A stretch of 64,000 nucleotides of DNA from Parvibaculum lavamentivorans DS-1 (GTDB lineage Bacteria; Pseudomonadota; Alphaproteobacteria; Parvibaculales; Parvibaculaceae), in assembly GCF_000017565.1 (NCBI RefSeq), contig NC_009719.1:2525001-2589000 (forward strand), given 5' to 3'. Each line of letters starts with the position of its first letter. Position 1 is the stretch's first letter. The notes beneath the pieces were generated by a model. That model searched no databases. It was not told the origin of the DNA and saw only the letters and a list, made by a program, of their open reading frames with translations. The position numbers and the translations under genes are program-made. Shown here in pieces: positions 23,520-33,004 of this stretch.

Positions 23520-25106
23520 ATGAACCTTGCGGCATTTCCACTTGTCGTAGGCATTCTCCTCGCCGCGCTTACCGAAGCGGTAGCAGGTACGGTTCTGGCG
23601 ACGGCGCGGTTCGACATGATCGGCGACATCTACGCAACTACGGACGAGTTCTCGAGGCTGGATGTTGTCTATGCGGCGGCCAAACTGACGGGTTTTGTCC
23701 TGAGCCCGTGGCTTTTGGGCAAGGTATGTGCACGGACATGCTTGCGTGCCGCGACAGGCGCCATGACACTCGCCTGCGGCGCGGCCGCGCTGACTTTCGA
23801 TCTGGATATTCTCGTCGGTTTGCGACTGCTGCAGGGAGCGGCGGGGGGAGTGCTGCTCGTCAGCGGACAGACCATGCTGTTTCAGACATTTCCCCGCTCC
23901 AGTCAGCCTGTCGTCCAGTGCTTCTTTGCCATGGGAGCGGTCGTCGCGCCAGCAACGCTCGCCCCTTACATGGAAGGTTGGCTCGTCGACAGCCTGGCAT
24001 GGACATGGATATTCCTGAGCATAGTGCCCATCGGTCTTGCTGCTTTGGTGCTTCTTGTCCTGGCTCAACCGGGAGCCGGTGTGCACGCGAAGGCAGGCAG
24101 ACCCGATTGGCCGGGACTTTTGCTGTTTTCCATCGCTGCATATTGTCTGACTTACGTCCTTAGCCAGGGCAGCCGCTGGCAATGGCTGGAAGAGCTTTCG
24201 ATTCTGCGGCTGATGCTTGGCGGCACCGTTTCCCTGACGCTGTTCATGGTCTATCAGCTTCGCGCCGGACGCACTGACGCGCTCCTCGACCTTTCGATTT
24301 TCCGGTTCAGTGGATTTGCCTTCGGCTTTGTCGCAAGCATTGCCGCGGGCATCGCCCTGGCCGGGAGCACCTACCTCATCCAATCTTTCGTCGTCACCAT
24401 CCTCGGCATGACGCTGACCGCAGCTGGCAGGTTGCTCCTTCCTGGAGCGCTCGCATTTATCGGCACGCTTCTCCTGACCGCCCTACTGGTTCAGCGGCAC
24501 GGAATTAAGCCTATCGCTACAGTGCCTCTCGGTATCATTGGCCTCATGGTGGCGATGTGGATGCTGTCCGGTTCTACCGGCGAAAGCGGCTTCCCGGATT
24601 TGATGCCGGCGGTTCTGTTGCGCGGCCTCGCGCTTGGCTTCCTCTTTCTGTCGATCACGCTGATCACGCTGCTTGATCTTCCTGGACGGAAAATTGCTTA
24701 CGGAGTCGCGCTCTTCAACGTCGGCCGCCAGACAGGCGGGCTCTTCGGTGTGGCTTTTCTCGAAACACTGATCGACCACCAGACGGCGCTTAACCGGTCT
24801 GTTCTGACCGCACATATCGTTCCCGGCCGCGTAGCTGTAACGGAGCGTCTTGCAGCATTGACCGATGGTCTTGCTGCGCATGGAGTCGAGCTCGACACCG
24901 CCTCCAGAGCCGCCGTTCAGATACTCGCCAGAGAGCTCACCATGCAGGCGAGCGTCATCGCTTTCGACACGGCTTTCTTTGCCGTTGCGCTGTTCTTCGT
25001 CGGCGCGGCGCCTGTACTGGTGACGGTGAAAATCGTGCTGGGACGCATTTCCGGCCGCGAAGAAAAGAAGATGGTCGGAACCCCGCAACAGGTCAGGTCG
25101 GCCTGA
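23520..25106 (+). CDS. DHA2-family MFS drug/proton antiporter (EmrB-like)
   Basis: A 528-aa integral membrane transporter with about 14 hydrophobic segments, the DHA2 (14-helix) arrangement. The N-terminal half shows LRLLQGAAGGVLLVSGQTML, corresponding to the conserved motif C-like region, and a late cytoplasmic Arg/Glu-rich tail. It follows the HlyD-like adaptor by two bases, so the two form an EmrAB-type efflux complex. The first helix lacks the usual motif with a charged residue run seen in EmrB (DxxIVNVALP); here it reads LTEAVAGTVLATA, so substrate range may differ. Substrate unknown. Confidence 0.9.
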   Translation: MNLAAFPLVVGILLAALTEAVAGTVLATARFDMIGDIYATTDEFSRLDVVYAAAKLTGFVLSPWLLGKVCARTCLRAATGAMTLACGAAALTFDLDILVGLRLLQGAAGGVLLVSGQTMLFQTFPRSSQPVVQCFFAMGAVVAPATLAPYMEGWLVDSLAWTWIFLSIVPIGLAALVLLVLAQPGAGVHAKAGRPDWPGLLLFSIAAYCLTYVLSQGSRWQWLEELSILRLMLGGTVSLTLFMVYQLRAGRTDALLDLSIFRFSGFAFGFVASIAAGIALAGSTYLIQSFVVTILGMTLTAAGRLLLPGALAFIGTLLLTALLVQRHGIKPIATVPLGIIGLMVAMWMLSGSTGESGFPDLMPAVLLRGLALGFLFLSITLITLLDLPGRKIAYGVALFNVGRQTGGLFGVAFLETLIDHQTALNRSVLTAHIVPGRVAVTERLAALTDGLAAHGVELDTASRAAVQILARELTMQASVIAFDTAFFAVALFFVGAAPVLVTVKIVLGRISGREEKKMVGTPQQVRSA

Positions 25107-27110: not shown

Positions 27111-27225
27111 GTTCGCGACAAGTGCGTCGCCACCGCGTGTTGCGGATCGATGAGCGTCGACATCGTTGAAAGCCGAGACGCCTCGGAACCAACCTTCTAC
27201 TCGATGTCTCTTTCAGTATCTTTCA

Positions 27226-28227
27226 CTACAACACAAACAGACCGAGGCCCTCAACCACTTCGCGCTTTGTGGTCTCGGTACGGCTCCGGGCCCTTTCGGT
27301 CCCGCTGCGTATCACGTCGAGCACGTACGGCAGGTCTTTGGCCAACTCTTCGCGGTGTGTCCGGATTGGCCCGATGAGCGCCTGCAGAATTTCGTCGAGA
27401 CGCCGTTTGATCTTGCCGTCTCCCAATCCGCCTTGCCGATACTGAGCCTTCAGCTCCTCGAGAGTGATGAGGTCCTCGTCGAAAGCGTCGAGGAAGGCAA
27501 AGACGACGTTACCCTCCACCTGTCCCGGATCTTCTATCCTCAGATGGTTGGGATCGGTAAACATCGCCCTTACCGCTGTCGAGATGACCTCGGGCGGAGC
27601 AGAGAGTGAGATGGCGTTGCCCGCCGATTTGGACATTTTGGCTTTGCCGTCGATCCCCGGCAGCCGCCCGGTTTTCGGAATGATTGCCTGTGCTTCCAGC
27701 AGGATCGTCTTGCCCGCCGTAGCATTGATGCGGCGCACTATTTCGTTGGTCTGTTCAATCAACGGAGCCTGGTCCTCGCCCACCGGCACCACCGTTGCCT
27801 TGAAGGCTGTGATATCCGCTGCTTGCGCCGCAGGATAACAAAGGAAGCCTGCCGGAATGTCGCGCCCAAAGCCACGTGCCCTGATTTCGTCCTTGATCGT
27901 CGGATTGCGTTCTAGGCGGGAGACTGTCACGAAGTTCAGATAGAGCATCGAGAGCTCGGCCAGGGCCGGGAGGCCCGATTGCAGACAGATCGTCGTCTTC
28001 TCGGGATCGATCCCTGTTGCAAGATAGTCCAGAGCGACTTCGGTTACGTTGCGACGCACCTTGCCTGGATCATGGGCATTGTCGGTGAGGGCCTGCGTGT
28101 CGGCCAGGAGCAGAAACTGCTCGTGGCTCTCCTGAAACCGAAGCCGATTGCGCAACGATCCCGCGAAGTGGCCTATGTGCAGGGGACCGGTGGTGCGGTC
28201 GCCGGTCAGAATTACAGGTCTGGTCAT
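27226..28227 (-). CDS. trpS: Tryptophanyl-tRNA synthetase
   Basis: A class I aminoacyl-tRNA synthetase of 333 aa that charges tRNA-Trp. The ATP-binding signature is GPLHIGHF near residue 14 and the second signature is KMSKSAG near residue 200. Length is typical of bacterial TrpRS. A trp-type attenuator lies in the leader: a tandem-Trp leader peptide at 28335-28382 and a terminator at 28277-28302, 50 bases before the start codon. An AGAGG ribosome site lies about 11 bases ahead of the ATG. Attenuator control suggests this may be a second, inducible TrpRS beside a housekeeping copy elsewhere, as seen with indolmycin-type resistance; that is inference. Confidence 0.95.
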   Translation of the reverse strand: MTRPVILTGDRTTGPLHIGHFAGSLRNRLRFQESHEQFLLLADTQALTDNAHDPGKVRRNVTEVALDYLATGIDPEKTTICLQSGLPALAELSMLYLNFVTVSRLERNPTIKDEIRARGFGRDIPAGFLCYPAAQAADITAFKATVVPVGEDQAPLIEQTNEIVRRINATAGKTILLEAQAIIPKTGRLPGIDGKAKMSKSAGNAISLSAPPEVISTAVRAMFTDPNHLRIEDPGQVEGNVVFAFLDAFDEDLITLEELKAQYRQGGLGDGKIKRRLDEILQALIGPIRTHREELAKDLPYVLDVIRSGTERARSRTETTKREVVEGLGLFVL

Positions 28228-28276
28228 GGGGTATCATCCTCTCGAGGTGAGGGAGACGCCGCATGGAGGGATCATT

Positions 28277-28302
28277 AAAAAAGGCCGCTCAATACGGCGG
28301 CC
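28277..28302 (-). terminator. Attenuator terminator in the trpS leader
   Basis: On the minus strand GGCCGC (28302-28297), an 8-base loop, GCGGCC (28288-28283) and six T residues form a rho-independent terminator upstream of trpS. Its 5-prime arm is also perfectly complementary to GCGGCC at 28330-28325, which gives a competing antiterminator hairpin. GCGGCC can in turn pair, through GGCCGG, with CTGGCC at the end of the leader peptide codons. This is the 1:2, 2:3, 3:4 logic of trp attenuation. Confidence 0.85.
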
Positions 28303-28334
28303 CTGAAGATGCAAAGAAACGTCCGGCCGCGTTG

Positions 28335-28382
28335 TCAGCAGGCCAGCCACCAGAAATTGGCGATGTTCGTTTCCGTTTTCAT
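28335..28382 (-). CDS. trp-type leader peptide of trpS
   Basis: A 15-codon open frame, MKTETNIANFWWLAC, with two adjacent tryptophan codons at positions 11 and 12, directly before the antiterminator/terminator pair. Ribosome stalling at the Trp codons when charged tRNA-Trp is scarce would free segment 2 to form the antiterminator and let trpS be transcribed. There is no ribosome site: the ATG lies exactly where transcription should begin (seven bases after the -10 element), so the transcript is probably leaderless, as reported for rhizobial trpL. Its cysteine codon is followed by TGA. No protein function is expected. Confidence 0.85.
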   Translation of the reverse strand: MKTETNIANFWWLAC

Positions 28383-28389
28383 GGGCAAC

Positions 28390-28418
28390 TCCGTATGCCC
28401 ACCGGGGGAGCAAGTCAA
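28390..28418 (-). promoter_or_regulatory. Promoter of the trpS leader transcript
   Basis: TTGACT (28418-28413), 17 bases, TACGGA (28395-28390) on the minus strand. The expected transcription start falls on the A of the leader ATG at 28382. The -35 element is a five-of-six match; the -10 is weak. Confidence 0.6.
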
Positions 28419-28561
28419 CGGGAAGTTGCGCAGGCGTCGCTTTGGACAGAAAGCGGCCCCTCCGCTCGTCTTCACCTATCATCAAGCATCGCTGCGCCCA
28501 TCCGACATGTGGCGGTGCATGGCATCATCGCAAGATCGACTCACAACCTGGAGTGCTCGCG

Positions 28562-30064
28562 ATGGGGCCAGATCAATTGCTTGTCCGGATGATCGACACT
28601 TTCTGCCGTCAGCGCGCCGCGACGGGACTTTCAGATGATGAGGTCGATGACCTCTGCAGGTACTGCCAACGGCTGATCGAAGAGCGTCAGCTTCCACCAA
28701 GAACGGGAACGAAGTTCGATTGGCAGTCGATAGCGTTTGCTACCGGGATCGATCCCGAAAGGTTCAGGGCGGTGGCTAAAAGCCTCACCTACGGCTTCGA
28801 TGCACTCGCGCGCGAAATCCCGAGGCTGCCGGAGAGGGAATTCCTGCCTCCACAAATGCCCGAAGCGGATTCCGCCGCACCAGCCGCAAAGCGAACATCC
28901 AAACGGGTTGAGAAGGTGCCGGAGGTAGGTCCGAGGAAACGAGCGCCGCGGCGGCAAATCAGCAGGACGAGGCAAAGGAAGGATGGATCTCGTAAGCCCG
29001 GGCCAATTCCAAGACCCGTCGTGGAGTTTCCCGAAGCTCAACCGGGAGACTGGGAGGATCTGGTGGAATTCCACGCCGCGCTGCAGCTTCACATGCGAAG
29101 GCACGGCGACAGCGCCTGGCACCTGCACAAGGCGATCGCGAAGCCCAGGGATGCCTTCGACAGAAGAACCATCCTGGCATGGGCGCGAGGAGAAAACCTT
29201 CCCGCAAATGTCGACAGCCTCGAAATGCTGCGGCGGATCGAGCATCGCTACCGTCTGCCCGCGGGCTATTTTCAGGCGAAACTGCAGGGCCGGAAACGCT
29301 CTGTCTCCGGACACCGGCGCCTGCCGGATATCTCGGCGTCGGAACGCAGGCGCATGGCCTGGCATCTGCCTACCGACTTCGACCGCCGCCCCGAGGAGGA
29401 ACGCAACGAGATCCTCGATTGGGTAAGGCGGGTGATCATCACGGGAACGACGGACTATCGCCGCTACCAGGCGGCGATGTGCAAGCAGCGGTTCTCCGTC
29501 CAGTTCACGGGGCTGGATAACACGAAGGCCCGCCGTCGCCGCCCTGCGAGCGAAGGTGCCACCGGGTTCGTAACGCCAGTCGAAGCCCCTGCTCAACTCA
29601 GGCAGGAGATGGCCGATCTCATGGGCTTCAAGACGGCCACCCTGACGGCAATCGGCTTCCAGAGACAGGGGCAATGGGGTGAGGAGACGGCGTCCCAGAA
29701 ACTTGAGCACCTCGGTCTGATGCTTGGTGCGCTCACAGCCACGCCCGACAGCGAAGTCAGAGGATACGGCATCGCGCTCGAGAATCTGACACTGGGCCTT
29801 CTGGTCTTTCCGGCGGTGTGGGACTGGTACCTCCGATGGAGAGAGCGCCGCCGCGGCTTCTTCACCAACTGGGAGGTCGACATGCTTCGGACGGCCTTGG
29901 CGCTCACCCGGAAGGACACGGGCTGGGTCCGGCAGACGCCGCGTCTCGCAGAGATGTTGAATCCCATCGAGGGGCTCGTGTCGGCAGAGGACATTGCAGA
30001 GACACGGGCGGACTGGAACGCAGCCTGCGACAGGCTGCACAGCTTTGCCACGGCACGCGCGTAG
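28562..30064 (+). CDS. Uncharacterised partner protein of a split tyrosine recombinase
   Basis: A 500-aa protein I do not recognise by name. The first 110 residues look helical; residues about 110-150 are very basic (runs such as RKRAPRRQ and RTRQRK), suggesting DNA contact. A region near residues 185-240 (WHLHKAIAKPRDAFDRRTILAWARGENLP) resembles a Cro/C1-type helix-turn-helix and is followed by an Arg-rich segment. The C-terminal half is Trp- and Arg-rich. The following gene is in the same frame after one TAG and four codons and holds a tyrosine-recombinase catalytic domain, so this protein probably supplies DNA binding. The ATG at 28562 has GGAG eight bases upstream. Confidence 0.6.
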   Translation: MGPDQLLVRMIDTFCRQRAATGLSDDEVDDLCRYCQRLIEERQLPPRTGTKFDWQSIAFATGIDPERFRAVAKSLTYGFDALAREIPRLPEREFLPPQMPEADSAAPAAKRTSKRVEKVPEVGPRKRAPRRQISRTRQRKDGSRKPGPIPRPVVEFPEAQPGDWEDLVEFHAALQLHMRRHGDSAWHLHKAIAKPRDAFDRRTILAWARGENLPANVDSLEMLRRIEHRYRLPAGYFQAKLQGRKRSVSGHRRLPDISASERRRMAWHLPTDFDRRPEEERNEILDWVRRVIITGTTDYRRYQAAMCKQRFSVQFTGLDNTKARRRRPASEGATGFVTPVEAPAQLRQEMADLMGFKTATLTAIGFQRQGQWGEETASQKLEHLGLMLGALTATPDSEVRGYGIALENLTLGLLVFPAVWDWYLRWRERRRGFFTNWEVDMLRTALALTRKDTGWVRQTPRLAEMLNPIEGLVSAEDIAETRADWNAACDRLHSFATARA

Positions 30065-30076
30065 GAGATCGAGCGT

Positions 30077-30889
30077 GTGTCACGCGTCCACCGCGATCCG
30101 TTCGAGCCCATCCTTCCGATCCTGGAGGCGGAAAGCCCTCTTGCCGAGTACCGGAAGATCACCGAAGAAATCCTCCGCTATATGCCCGACGAGCGACGGT
30201 ATCCCATTGCGGCATCCGAGGCCGTTCGTTCGTTCCTGATGCTGAGGATCGGGCTGCACTCCGGTCTCCGTCAGAAGAACCTGCGCCAGCTTCTCATCTG
30301 CGGCCGAGACGAGGTGCCCTTGTCGGAACGGCGTCTGACAGAACTCAAGCGGGGTCAACTCCGTTGGAACAACCGCTCTTCGGGATGGGAGCTCTTCATT
30401 CCGTCCGCCGCCTTCAAGAACGCGAACTCATCCTACTTCGGGAGCAAACCGTTCCAGCTCGTGCTTCCGGATCTCGGCGGCCTTTATGAGGCGATAGATG
30501 CCTATGTCAGCCGGCACCGGCCACGACTGCTCCGCCAGGCATCCGATCCGGGAACCTTCTTCGTGAAGACCGTGAAGACCACCTCGGCGAACGCAGCCTA
30601 CAATCAGACGACCTTCTACGAAGCGTGGCGGCTCGCGATCCAGCGATACGGCATCTACAACCCCTATACCGGACGAGGCGCTATTGAAGGCCTGCTGCCC
30701 CATGGTCCGCATAACGTCCGGGACGTACTCGCAACTCATATCCTGAAGAAGACCGGCTCCTACGAGCAGGCGAGCTACGCCATTCAGGACACACCCGACA
30801 TGGTGGCGAAGCACTACGGCCGGTTCCTGCCGCACGACAAGGCGGCGCTCGCGGCGCAGGTCCTCAACAAGGTATGGGAGGCTTCGTAG
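30077..30889 (+). CDS. Tyrosine recombinase/phage-integrase catalytic domain protein
   Basis: A 270-aa protein with the catalytic domain of tyrosine site-specific recombinases. The first catalytic Arg is in HSGLRQKNLR (near residue 60), the His-x2-Arg box is HNVRDVLATH (near residue 215), and the nucleophile Tyr is in AKHYGRF (near residue 245). There is little room for the N-terminal core-binding domain, which may be provided by the gene upstream. The GTG start is preceded by TAGGAG, where the upstream stop forms part of the ribosome site, a sign of coupled translation. It would catalyse integration or inversion through a short site. Confidence 0.8.
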   Translation: MSRVHRDPFEPILPILEAESPLAEYRKITEEILRYMPDERRYPIAASEAVRSFLMLRIGLHSGLRQKNLRQLLICGRDEVPLSERRLTELKRGQLRWNNRSSGWELFIPSAAFKNANSSYFGSKPFQLVLPDLGGLYEAIDAYVSRHRPRLLRQASDPGTFFVKTVKTTSANAAYNQTTFYEAWRLAIQRYGIYNPYTGRGAIEGLLPHGPHNVRDVLATHILKKTGSYEQASYAIQDTPDMVAKHYGRFLPHDKAALAAQVLNKVWEAS

Positions 30890-31783: not shown

Positions 31784-32455
31784 TCAGGCCTTCAATTTAC
31801 GGATTTCGATATTTCGTCCGGTTGAGGACACGGTGATTTCAAAATGATCCGTCTGCGCAATACCGGCAATGTTGCGCGGCCGATGCGCGACGACATTGAC
31901 GCCTGTGCGCCGTCGCGGGCTGTCGTAAAGAATGCCTGCGCCGCCGGACGCGCGAACCGCCTCGCCGAATTTCTGTGCCTCGGCATAGCTATCGCTTGCG
32001 TAGAGATCAGGGCGGACTGATTGTTGCCCCCTGATGTCGAGATACTCGCCTTGAAGCGTTGCCGTGTAGGCGCGGTAAATCCGGGTCATTCCCGGCACGC
32101 CGCGGGCAACCGCTTCGCGGCGCAGATGATGCCCGACTTCCGCGGCCGCGGTGCGGATATCACCGGCGGCATACCATGCGCCGAGATCCGGGCCGTTGAA
32201 CCGCATGCCGCCGGGGGCGGCATGAAGAAAGGCGGCCATGACCACACTCGCATTCGGCACGCCATAGACCCATTCGTCCTTGGGTAGACGATCGATGCGT
32301 TCGGCGACAAGCCGGTCATTGGTCCAGCCGGCAAGTTCCATCACGGCTTCGAGGTCGGCCGCCGTCGCAACCGTGTCGAACAGTCCGACGGGCGGAAATC
32401 GCGAAGGGATCAGCCGATGCGAGGGCTGCGGCGCGGCAGCGTACGCATCCGTCAC
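31784..32455 (-). CDS. RES-domain toxin of a type II toxin-antitoxin pair
   Basis: A 223-aa RES-family protein. The conserved motif residues are visible: Arg in HRLIPSRFPPVGLFD near the N-terminus, Glu/Tyr in the central region (TRIYRAYTATLQGEYLDIRG) and Ser in ILYDSPRR. RES toxins (for example ParT, MbcT) modify or degrade NAD+ or target NAD-linked enzymes and stop growth. It starts with a GTG whose last bases overlap the antitoxin stop (GTGA), the usual antitoxin-first order, so translation is coupled. The neighbouring antitoxin is of the matching Xre/MbcA type, which supports the call strongly. Confidence 0.88.
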   Translation of the reverse strand: MTDAYAAAPQPSHRLIPSRFPPVGLFDTVATAADLEAVMELAGWTNDRLVAERIDRLPKDEWVYGVPNASVVMAAFLHAAPGGMRFNGPDLGAWYAAGDIRTAAAEVGHHLRREAVARGVPGMTRIYRAYTATLQGEYLDIRGQQSVRPDLYASDSYAEAQKFGEAVRASGGAGILYDSPRRRTGVNVVAHRPRNIAGIAQTDHFEITVSSTGRNIEIRKLKA

Positions 32456-32976
32456 TGGAAACCGAGCTCATCGTCGGTATAGGGCTCGAACGCTTCGTCG
32501 ATACTGCCCGGCGGCATGTAGAGCCCGCCGCGGGCACCGTCGAGAAAACGGCGCACGCTCAGCAATCCATCCTGAGAGCCGCTTGTGAGGAGATCGAGCG
32601 GTGGTCTGCCGCCGAACGGAAGGGCGCCATGCGACGTCGTCAGCCACTCGACGCCGGAACGCTCATCGGGAAAAAGAATGCCGAGCGCCTGGTGGATGCC
32701 CAGAACCGCCGAAATCCGCAACAGCACATCCACATCGAGCGTGATGGCCTCGTGCTCGCGCACCCGCTTGCACCAGTTGTGATAGGTGGATCGGGCCGGA
32801 AGGCCCAGGACCAGAAGGCGCTGTTCTTCTGTCAGGCCCCAGAGGTCCGCGATAGTCAGGAAGGTCCGCAGAGCGGGCGCGCTGAGACGGCGGCGGTTGG
32901 CCGGTGCGAACCGGGACACGTCGAGTCGCTGAAGGCCATCTCCTTCCCTAACGGGCCGCTTCTTCTGATTAGCCAT
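32452..32976 (-). CDS. Xre/MbcA/ParS-family antitoxin
   Basis: A 174-aa antitoxin. The N-terminal half contains a helix-turn-helix (LWGLTEEQRLLVLGLPARSTYHNW) and the C-terminal half the MbcA/ParS/Xre toxin-binding domain (LLRISAVLGIHQALGILFPD, then PLDLLTSGSQDGLLSVRRFLDGARGG split by short loops). It should neutralise the RES toxin and repress the operon. I prefer the ATG at 32976 because GGAGG lies five bases upstream; an ATG at 32988 is in frame. A palindrome GTCCA-TATC-TGGAC at 33005-33018 sits in the promoter, as expected for autoregulation. Confidence 0.87.
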   Translation of the reverse strand: MANQKKRPVREGDGLQRLDVSRFAPANRRRLSAPALRTFLTIADLWGLTEEQRLLVLGLPARSTYHNWCKRVREHEAITLDVDVLLRISAVLGIHQALGILFPDERSGVEWLTTSHGALPFGGRPPLDLLTSGSQDGLLSVRRFLDGARGGLYMPPGSIDEAFEPYTDDELGFQ

Positions 32977-33004
32977 CTTCGCCTCCATTCCAAATATAGA
33001 TATA

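Follow-up and report, generated by a model that had tools for sequence, protein, structure and literature searches.

A probable leaderless tryptophan attenuator upstream of an auxiliary tryptophanyl-tRNA synthetase gene in Parvibaculum lavamentivorans and other Proteobacteria

Organization of the trpS2 leader region

The DNA analyzed here (64,000 nucleotides of Parvibaculum lavamentivorans DS-1, hereafter the window) carries on its minus strand trpS2 (27226..28227), whose 333-residue product is, by protein comparison, a TrpRS II-like auxiliary tryptophanyl-tRNA synthetase (TrpRS). Upstream of this gene, and on the same strand as all elements described below, lies a leader ORF of 15 codons (28335..28382, ATG at 28382; MKTETNIANFWWLAC and a stop codon), which has no Shine-Dalgarno (SD) site and carries tandem Trp codons, TGG TGG, at 28347..28352. 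The leader is preceded by a -35-like hexamer, TTGACT (28413..28418), in which the placement of TTG is kept across leaders, and by a -10-like hexamer, TACGGA (28390..28395), which is a weak match; the spacer between the hexamers measures 17 nt, and 7 nt separate TACGGA from the leader ATG.

Segment 1 (GGCTG, 28344..28348) can pair with segment 2 (GCGGCC, 28325..28330), which lies four nt beyond the leader stop codon and has segment 3 (GGCCGCC, 28296..28302) as its alternative partner, 2:3 being the predicted antiterminator. Alignment and folding indicate that segment 3 can also pair with segment 4 (GCGGCC, 28283..28288), the 3' arm of a predicted terminator that is detected by a terminator scan and continues into a U tract (TTTTTT, 28277..28282), ending approximately 50 nt upstream of the trpS2 start at 28227. 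A sequence-only reading of this region had proposed a 15-codon leader with tandem Trp codons ahead of trpS, a GCGGCC stretch with two alternative partners, and a terminator with six T residues. All of these elements are present, and both the 1:2 and the 2:3 pairings are supported in the window and in 16 aligned relatives.

The same reading had suggested that the genome would harbor a second TrpRS, and had pointed to trpE as another place where the leader might be found. In the genome of the strain (3.9 Mb, one contig) a search indeed recovered, besides the trpS2 product, one other TrpRS, of the housekeeping type and 32% identical to it, whose gene does not carry a leader with tandem Trp codons (WW leader); the region upstream of trpE yielded no WW ORF. 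Both enzymes exceed the TIGR00233 trpS cut-off, the trpS2 product with 222.8 bits and the other one, which scores better, with 314.1 bits. The solved structures closest to the trpS2 product are TrpRS II chains 2A4M and 1YI8 (E 7.2e-112; 377 bits versus 115.8 bits to 5DK4), which we take to be TrpRS II of Deinococcus radiodurans, and the product is nearer to TrpRS II than to housekeeping TrpRS. A TGDR motif is present in 85 of 86 family members, versus SGxQ in 22 of 25 housekeeping-type enzymes.

Folding of the window leader in silico showed that 1:2 and 3:4 both form when no ribosome is placed on the RNA. When segment 1 is masked, 2:3 can form (-14.3 versus -13.6 kcal/mol for 3:4), and with a ribosome placed at the leader stop 3:4 alone remains. 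Co-folding of segments 2-4, which mimics the stalled state, gave as best fold a shortened 2:3 helix with a 5-pair remnant of 3:4 adjoining the U tract and, since this remnant survives, the modeled switch may be leaky. Taken by itself, the region has an unremarkable folding energy (z = -1.18). Searches of the leader against Rfam returned no family above threshold; for Trp_leader (RF00513) the window leader scored 19.7 bits against a gathering score of 41, which was also reached by none of 20 related loci.

Conservation of the leader and of its promoter

A WW-containing ORF of 8-25 codons that starts with ATG within 300 nt upstream of the gene was found at 46 of 85 family loci, a count in which one leader appears three times (L004, L032 and L033). 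The same scan detected such an ORF in 4 of 1700 dinucleotide shuffles, on none of the 85 antisense strands, and ahead of one of 25 housekeeping-type trpS genes. Rows L032 (same leader and gene as L004), L033 (same DNA as L004), L044 (no upstream sequence), L057 (gene start missing) and L132 (same place as L048) were left out of later analyses. The spacing of the elements is narrow, with 2-4 codons from WW to the stop in 57 of 58 leaders and 1-5 nt from the stop to segment 2 in 56 of 58, segment 2 being located for these counts by the first hit to a short pattern. Placement of a leader before a trpS gene had been considered much less usual than placement before trpE, but many members of this TrpRS subfamily have it, and Streptomyces also has known trpS attenuators (PMC1262725, PMC8079986).

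In an alignment of 17 sequences (the window and 16 relatives), mutually exclusive 1:2, 2:3 and 3:4 pairing is found together with an intrinsic terminator, and the short ORF places its regulatory codons ahead of segment 2, as in trp-type attenuators. Segments 1 and 2 are paired in 95.3% of cells, 2:3 in 111 of 119 cells, and the 6-pair 3:4 helix in all cells of all 17 sequences, with two pairs showing compensatory change in one sequence each. Pairing falls from 97.9% to 29-52% when the helix partners are slid against each other. A conserved ATGCGG element is also present downstream of the terminator (28259-28264 in the window); its complement is formed by the end of segment 3 together with the loop, which makes it a third possible partner of segment 3, with 3:5 paired in 83 of 91 cells of alignment A1.

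The leader ATG had been placed at the transcription start, a proposal that fared unevenly. Over 75 related leaders, TTG lies within positions -38 to -33 of the leader ATG in 60 cases (versus 1-13 of 75 in upstream windows), A or T is found at -12 in 64 and at -11 in 55, C or T is found at -1 in 66, and only three carry an SD-like 5-mer upstream of the ATG; where several in-frame ATG codons were available, the one giving 13-17 residues was taken, a choice made before the promoter was examined. This spacing and the lack of an SD are as expected for a leaderless mRNA, which the leader transcript probably is. On the other hand, a strict sigma-70 scan of the window leader region returned no promoter, the -10 being poor, so that assignment of the ATG to the transcription start rests on conservation; given this result and the unremarkable folding energy, the case as a whole rests on comparison. 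Leader codons display no third-position bias (241:327:308 by codon position), and translation of the leader is therefore deduced from frame, length and geometry. Outside WW, the peptide sequence is variable.

Distribution and association with a second TrpRS

Within the genus, trpS2 is present in 4 of 27 genomes (four of the 27 are less than 80% complete), and all four keep WW, the loss of which in close relatives would have spoken against the attenuator. An RNA model of the leader, which in the genome of the window strain yields a single strong match (102.7 bits; the next scores 18.9), detects it in exactly these four among 25 same-genus genomes searched.

In an even sample of the class, the subfamily occurs in 33 of 385 genomes. 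Seven members have at least 67% identity, and all seven coexist with a second TrpRS, six having WW leaders and one a single-Trp leader. Among the other 26 members (47-57% identity), no WW leader was found in the 23 inspected, and no other TrpRS was detected in the ten genomes checked. Acinetobacter loci gave no leader in 27 of 27 cases, the enzyme being the sole TrpRS in the five genomes checked. In Cupriavidus no leader was found at seven of eight loci, and six of those seven, with the genome checked, have no other TrpRS; C. basilensis has both TrpRS enzymes and the leader. Further weak matches in these genomes corresponded to TyrRS in the three tested and were TyrRS-like by motif in some others.

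For 61 rows both facts were known, the genomes of 47 of 80 loci having been searched (L046 left out) in addition to the sampled genomes: a WW leader is present in 40 of 43 rows with a second TrpRS, and in none of 18 without. An even phylum sample of 398 genomes, 36 of which have the subfamily, provided 25 genomes (four of which overlap earlier sets) after exclusion of two broken copies (G747, G655) and of nine relatives of family f188 at 40-44% identity; among these, 18 of 20 that have a second TrpRS carry the leader, versus one of five without. No WW leader starting with ATG was found in the three f188 relatives, of the nine, that were inspected. Exceptions to the rule are G610 and L102, which have no leader despite a second TrpRS; L081 and G142, in which a second TrpRS goes together with single-Trp leaders only; and G729, with a leader and no second TrpRS found (G142, G610 and G729 belong to the phylum sample). 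When relatedness is allowed for, on a tree from which L138, L139 and L141 (sole TrpRS, no leader) were left out, 4-5 independent pairs can be drawn; the second trait is the same in about half of these, and none is contrary to the rule. Since the tree offers only 4-5 independent contrasts, the association cannot reach formal significance after this correction.

Proposed mechanism and alternatives

These comparisons argue, with a probability of approximately 0.88, for a ribosome-mediated transcription attenuator upstream of an auxiliary TrpRS gene, and we infer that it would operate as follows. Transcription would start at or beside the leader AUG, and the leader would be translated as a leaderless mRNA. 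As long as Trp-tRNA is plentiful, the ribosome would pass the two Trp codons, reach the stop four nt before segment 2 and cover this segment; the 3:4 terminator would then form, a leader RNA of approximately 105 nt would be released, and trpS2 would stay off. If Trp-tRNA is scarce, either through Trp starvation or through impairment or inhibition of the housekeeping TrpRS, the ribosome would stall on WW over segment 1, whereupon 2:3 would pair, the full terminator would be blocked, and trpS2 would be transcribed to provide a back-up TrpRS. The selective reason for such an arrangement would be to have a substitute when the main enzyme is poisoned or insufficient.

The same switch could have a narrower purpose, namely tolerance to natural products of the indolmycin type that poison TrpRS: by acting on the main enzyme, the inhibitor would leave tRNA-Trp uncharged and thereby induce an insensitive TrpRS. 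We find this plausible, though somewhat short of an even chance. A His lining the pocket in 24 of 25 housekeeping-type enzymes, and corresponding by motif to His43 of the Bacillus stearothermophilus TrpRS, is replaced by Gln in 84 of 86 family members, the trpS2 product included; the motif pattern did not capture the remaining sequences. In the B. stearothermophilus enzyme, a His43-to-Asn substitution confers indolmycin resistance (PMC4899734), and Streptomyces TrpRS1 and an auxiliary TrpRS of S. griseus are described as indolmycin resistant in the sections consulted (PMC9437257, PMC6804068). The occurrence of trpS2-type genes on plasmids and in varying contexts points in the same direction. 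However, Gln is a family trait that is also carried by the sole TrpRS of Acinetobacter and Cupriavidus and thus need not relate to regulation, and a His43-to-Gln change was not found reported in the portions of the literature examined.

Control might instead be exerted on translation of trpS2, by a hairpin holding its SD site, with the terminator being incidental. The output does differ among leaders: the terminator criterion selects 30 of 58 leader loci (versus 8 of 232 shuffles), and since the other 28 fail it, the transcriptional form is not valid for the whole family. In addition, the SD site is buried at 24 of 42 leader loci, versus 36% of controls with shuffled upstream DNA and 4 of 15 housekeeping trpS genes. 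Nevertheless, blocking segment 3 in silico does not free the SD site, whose mean unpaired value goes from 0.20 to 0.15 over 44 loci; a terminator-less form in which engagement of segment 3 would release the site was modeled and is unsupported. Moreover, a terminator is found in all 16 WWL/WWQ leaders among the genome loci, which is the type of the window, as well as, among distinct plasmid loci, in three of four WWL leaders (the exception being L175), and those that fail include 22 of the 27 other leaders (L048 apart). We consider translational control a very unlikely account of the window leader. By eye, we also considered whether segment 2 might pair with the anti-SD strand, and abandoned the idea because the two do not covary in L050 and L073.

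A further alternative is a role mainly in trans for the terminated leader RNA or its peptide, like that of the rhizobial rnTrpL and peTrpL, control of trpS2 being secondary. The trpL of Sinorhizobium meliloti is itself leaderless, and both its RNA and its peptide are described as acting in trans in the parts of the reports consulted (PMC7298713, PMC10117765). We nonetheless consider this very unlikely here, as the RNA model, across 25 same-genus genomes, detects the leader only where the gene is, the peptide is variable outside WW, and the block common to two genus relatives comprises the leader plus trpS. Finally, a chance association of an ORF with a hairpin, to which the weak folding z-score and the lack of a consensus promoter could be attributed, is hardly credible in view of the conservation, spacing and pairing in relatives.

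Relation to known systems

Ribosome-mediated attenuation of an auxiliary, antibiotic-resistant TrpRS gene of the Streptomyces kind is reportedly the subject, by title, of a 2010 paper by Vecchione and Sello, and a 2004 study by Vitreschak is said to deal with attenuation in Proteobacteria and may mention the trpS-leader family. In the literature searched, as far as its accessible parts go, no account of a proteobacterial trpS-leader family was found besides a small ORF on the trpS mRNA of Caulobacter crescentus, which came to light in ribosome profiling and was described as a putative leader peptide (PMC4117421); like the present leader, it is a small ORF associated with an alphaproteobacterial trpS.

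In Streptomyces, trpS attenuators with a Trp-codon leader, including that of trpS2 of S. avermitilis, were predicted by comparison in 2005 (PMC1262725), and trpL2 of S. lividans is reported as leaderless and upstream of a monocistronic trpS (PMC8079986). The window system is alike in having a Trp-codon leader upstream of trpS, with a second TrpRS gene elsewhere in the genome that lacks such a leader. It differs in belonging to Proteobacteria rather than Actinobacteria, and in having tandem Trp codons and a U6 tract, whereas in S. lividans the peptide, MMTRTCTQLWRAA, contains a single Trp and a U tract was not detected. The rhizobial trpL (S. meliloti trpLE(G)) is a leaderless trp leader with tandem Trp codons and a terminator, as described in the consulted parts of PMC7298713 and PMC10117765; it resembles the window leader in these codons and the terminator and probably in being leaderless, but the gene it controls is trpE(G) rather than trpS2. 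TrpRS II has been described as a second TrpRS that is induced on radiation damage (PMC9437257, in the section consulted).

Thus, trpS attenuators themselves were already known, and the new parts are the second-enzyme rule and the behavior of the cassette described below. Beyond Streptomyces, the present analysis adds a broad set of Proteobacteria to the bacteria with an auxiliary TrpRS under probable attenuation control, and it offers a simple testable rule, according to which the attenuator is present where a main TrpRS exists and mostly absent where the trpS2-type enzyme is the sole one. It also suggests a TrpRS that is mobile and possibly tolerant to inhibitors, and that the very compounds directed against the main enzyme would induce.

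Genomic context and mobility

Comparison of the window by blastn with 19.9-kb regions of two genus relatives showed that the common stretch is limited to trpS and leader in one (27225-28384, L218) and to trpS, leader and promoter in the other (27225-28426, L219); with L217, 27225-31609 is in common. The gene tree of the trpS2 family mixes orders. At 1e-20, 144 of 72,556 plasmid records match the family, a number that may include other TrpRS types, and a WW leader was identified in 12 of 14 plasmid regions examined, from Roseibium, Variovorax, Methylocystis, Burkholderia, Escherichia coli, Klebsiella, Vibrio, Agrobacterium, Bosea and a Deinococcus plasmid; the two regions without a WW leader are of staphylococcal type. 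A nucleotide search of E. coli recovered a trpS2-type gene in 2 of 5426 genomes, on plasmids. We give about even odds to a picture in which a self-contained cassette of approximately 1.2 kb, consisting of a leaderless Trp attenuator and TrpRS II, serves as an inducible spare synthetase and is passed between Proteobacteria and into Deinococcus, residing on plasmids as well as chromosomes; lineages in which it is the sole TrpRS would usually lose the attenuator, and many Rhizobiales and Burkholderiales would have lost the terminator or replaced it with another output.

Several observations concern the surroundings of these genes. On a Klebsiella plasmid (L174, 1532-2788), the tryptophan permease gene mtr adjoins the leader-bearing trpS, between IS1 transposase genes. 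A plasmid labeled Streptomyces griseorubiginosus (L178, NZ_CP107771.1), a label that is doubtful, carries a trpS that clusters with a copy from a Staphylococcus epidermidis plasmid; the DNA upstream of this trpS is AT-rich. In relative G011 (L219, 3268-7871), genes for an AcrB-type efflux protein and an MFS protein lie upstream of the trpS cassette; the window itself carries an EmrB-like efflux gene (23520-25106) that scores slightly below the family cut-off. Two consecutive ORFs at 28442-30889, in the stretch shared with L217, have no Pfam match, the end of the second presumably resembling a tyrosine recombinase as judged by eye. At 31784-32988, a RES-domain gene adjoins a gene with Xre/MbcA/ParS-type antitoxin domains, likely forming a toxin-antitoxin pair.

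Other leaders were encountered in the course of the searches. Those of alignment A2 (L047, part of L049-L082, L099 and L100) mostly end in WWRS and mostly lack a U-tract terminator; GCCGCC/GGCGGC segments are conserved in them, and a hairpin covers the trpS SD site. A similar leader, MNRSIMIARRWWWRS, with a terminator-like hairpin precedes an ORF at L129 and L130 (G212 and G307), that of L130 encoding anthranilate synthase; in the same family, L128 (G030) has an ORF, MFTRENFDCFQDWWTVF, and a terminator-like hairpin upstream of an ORF with a methyltransferase domain. L120 and L127, weak matches of the RNA model, carry short ORFs containing Tyr/Phe before similar downstream ORFs, perhaps another aromatic attenuator. 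An unrelated Guanidine-II riboswitch is present at L041 (4781-4828).
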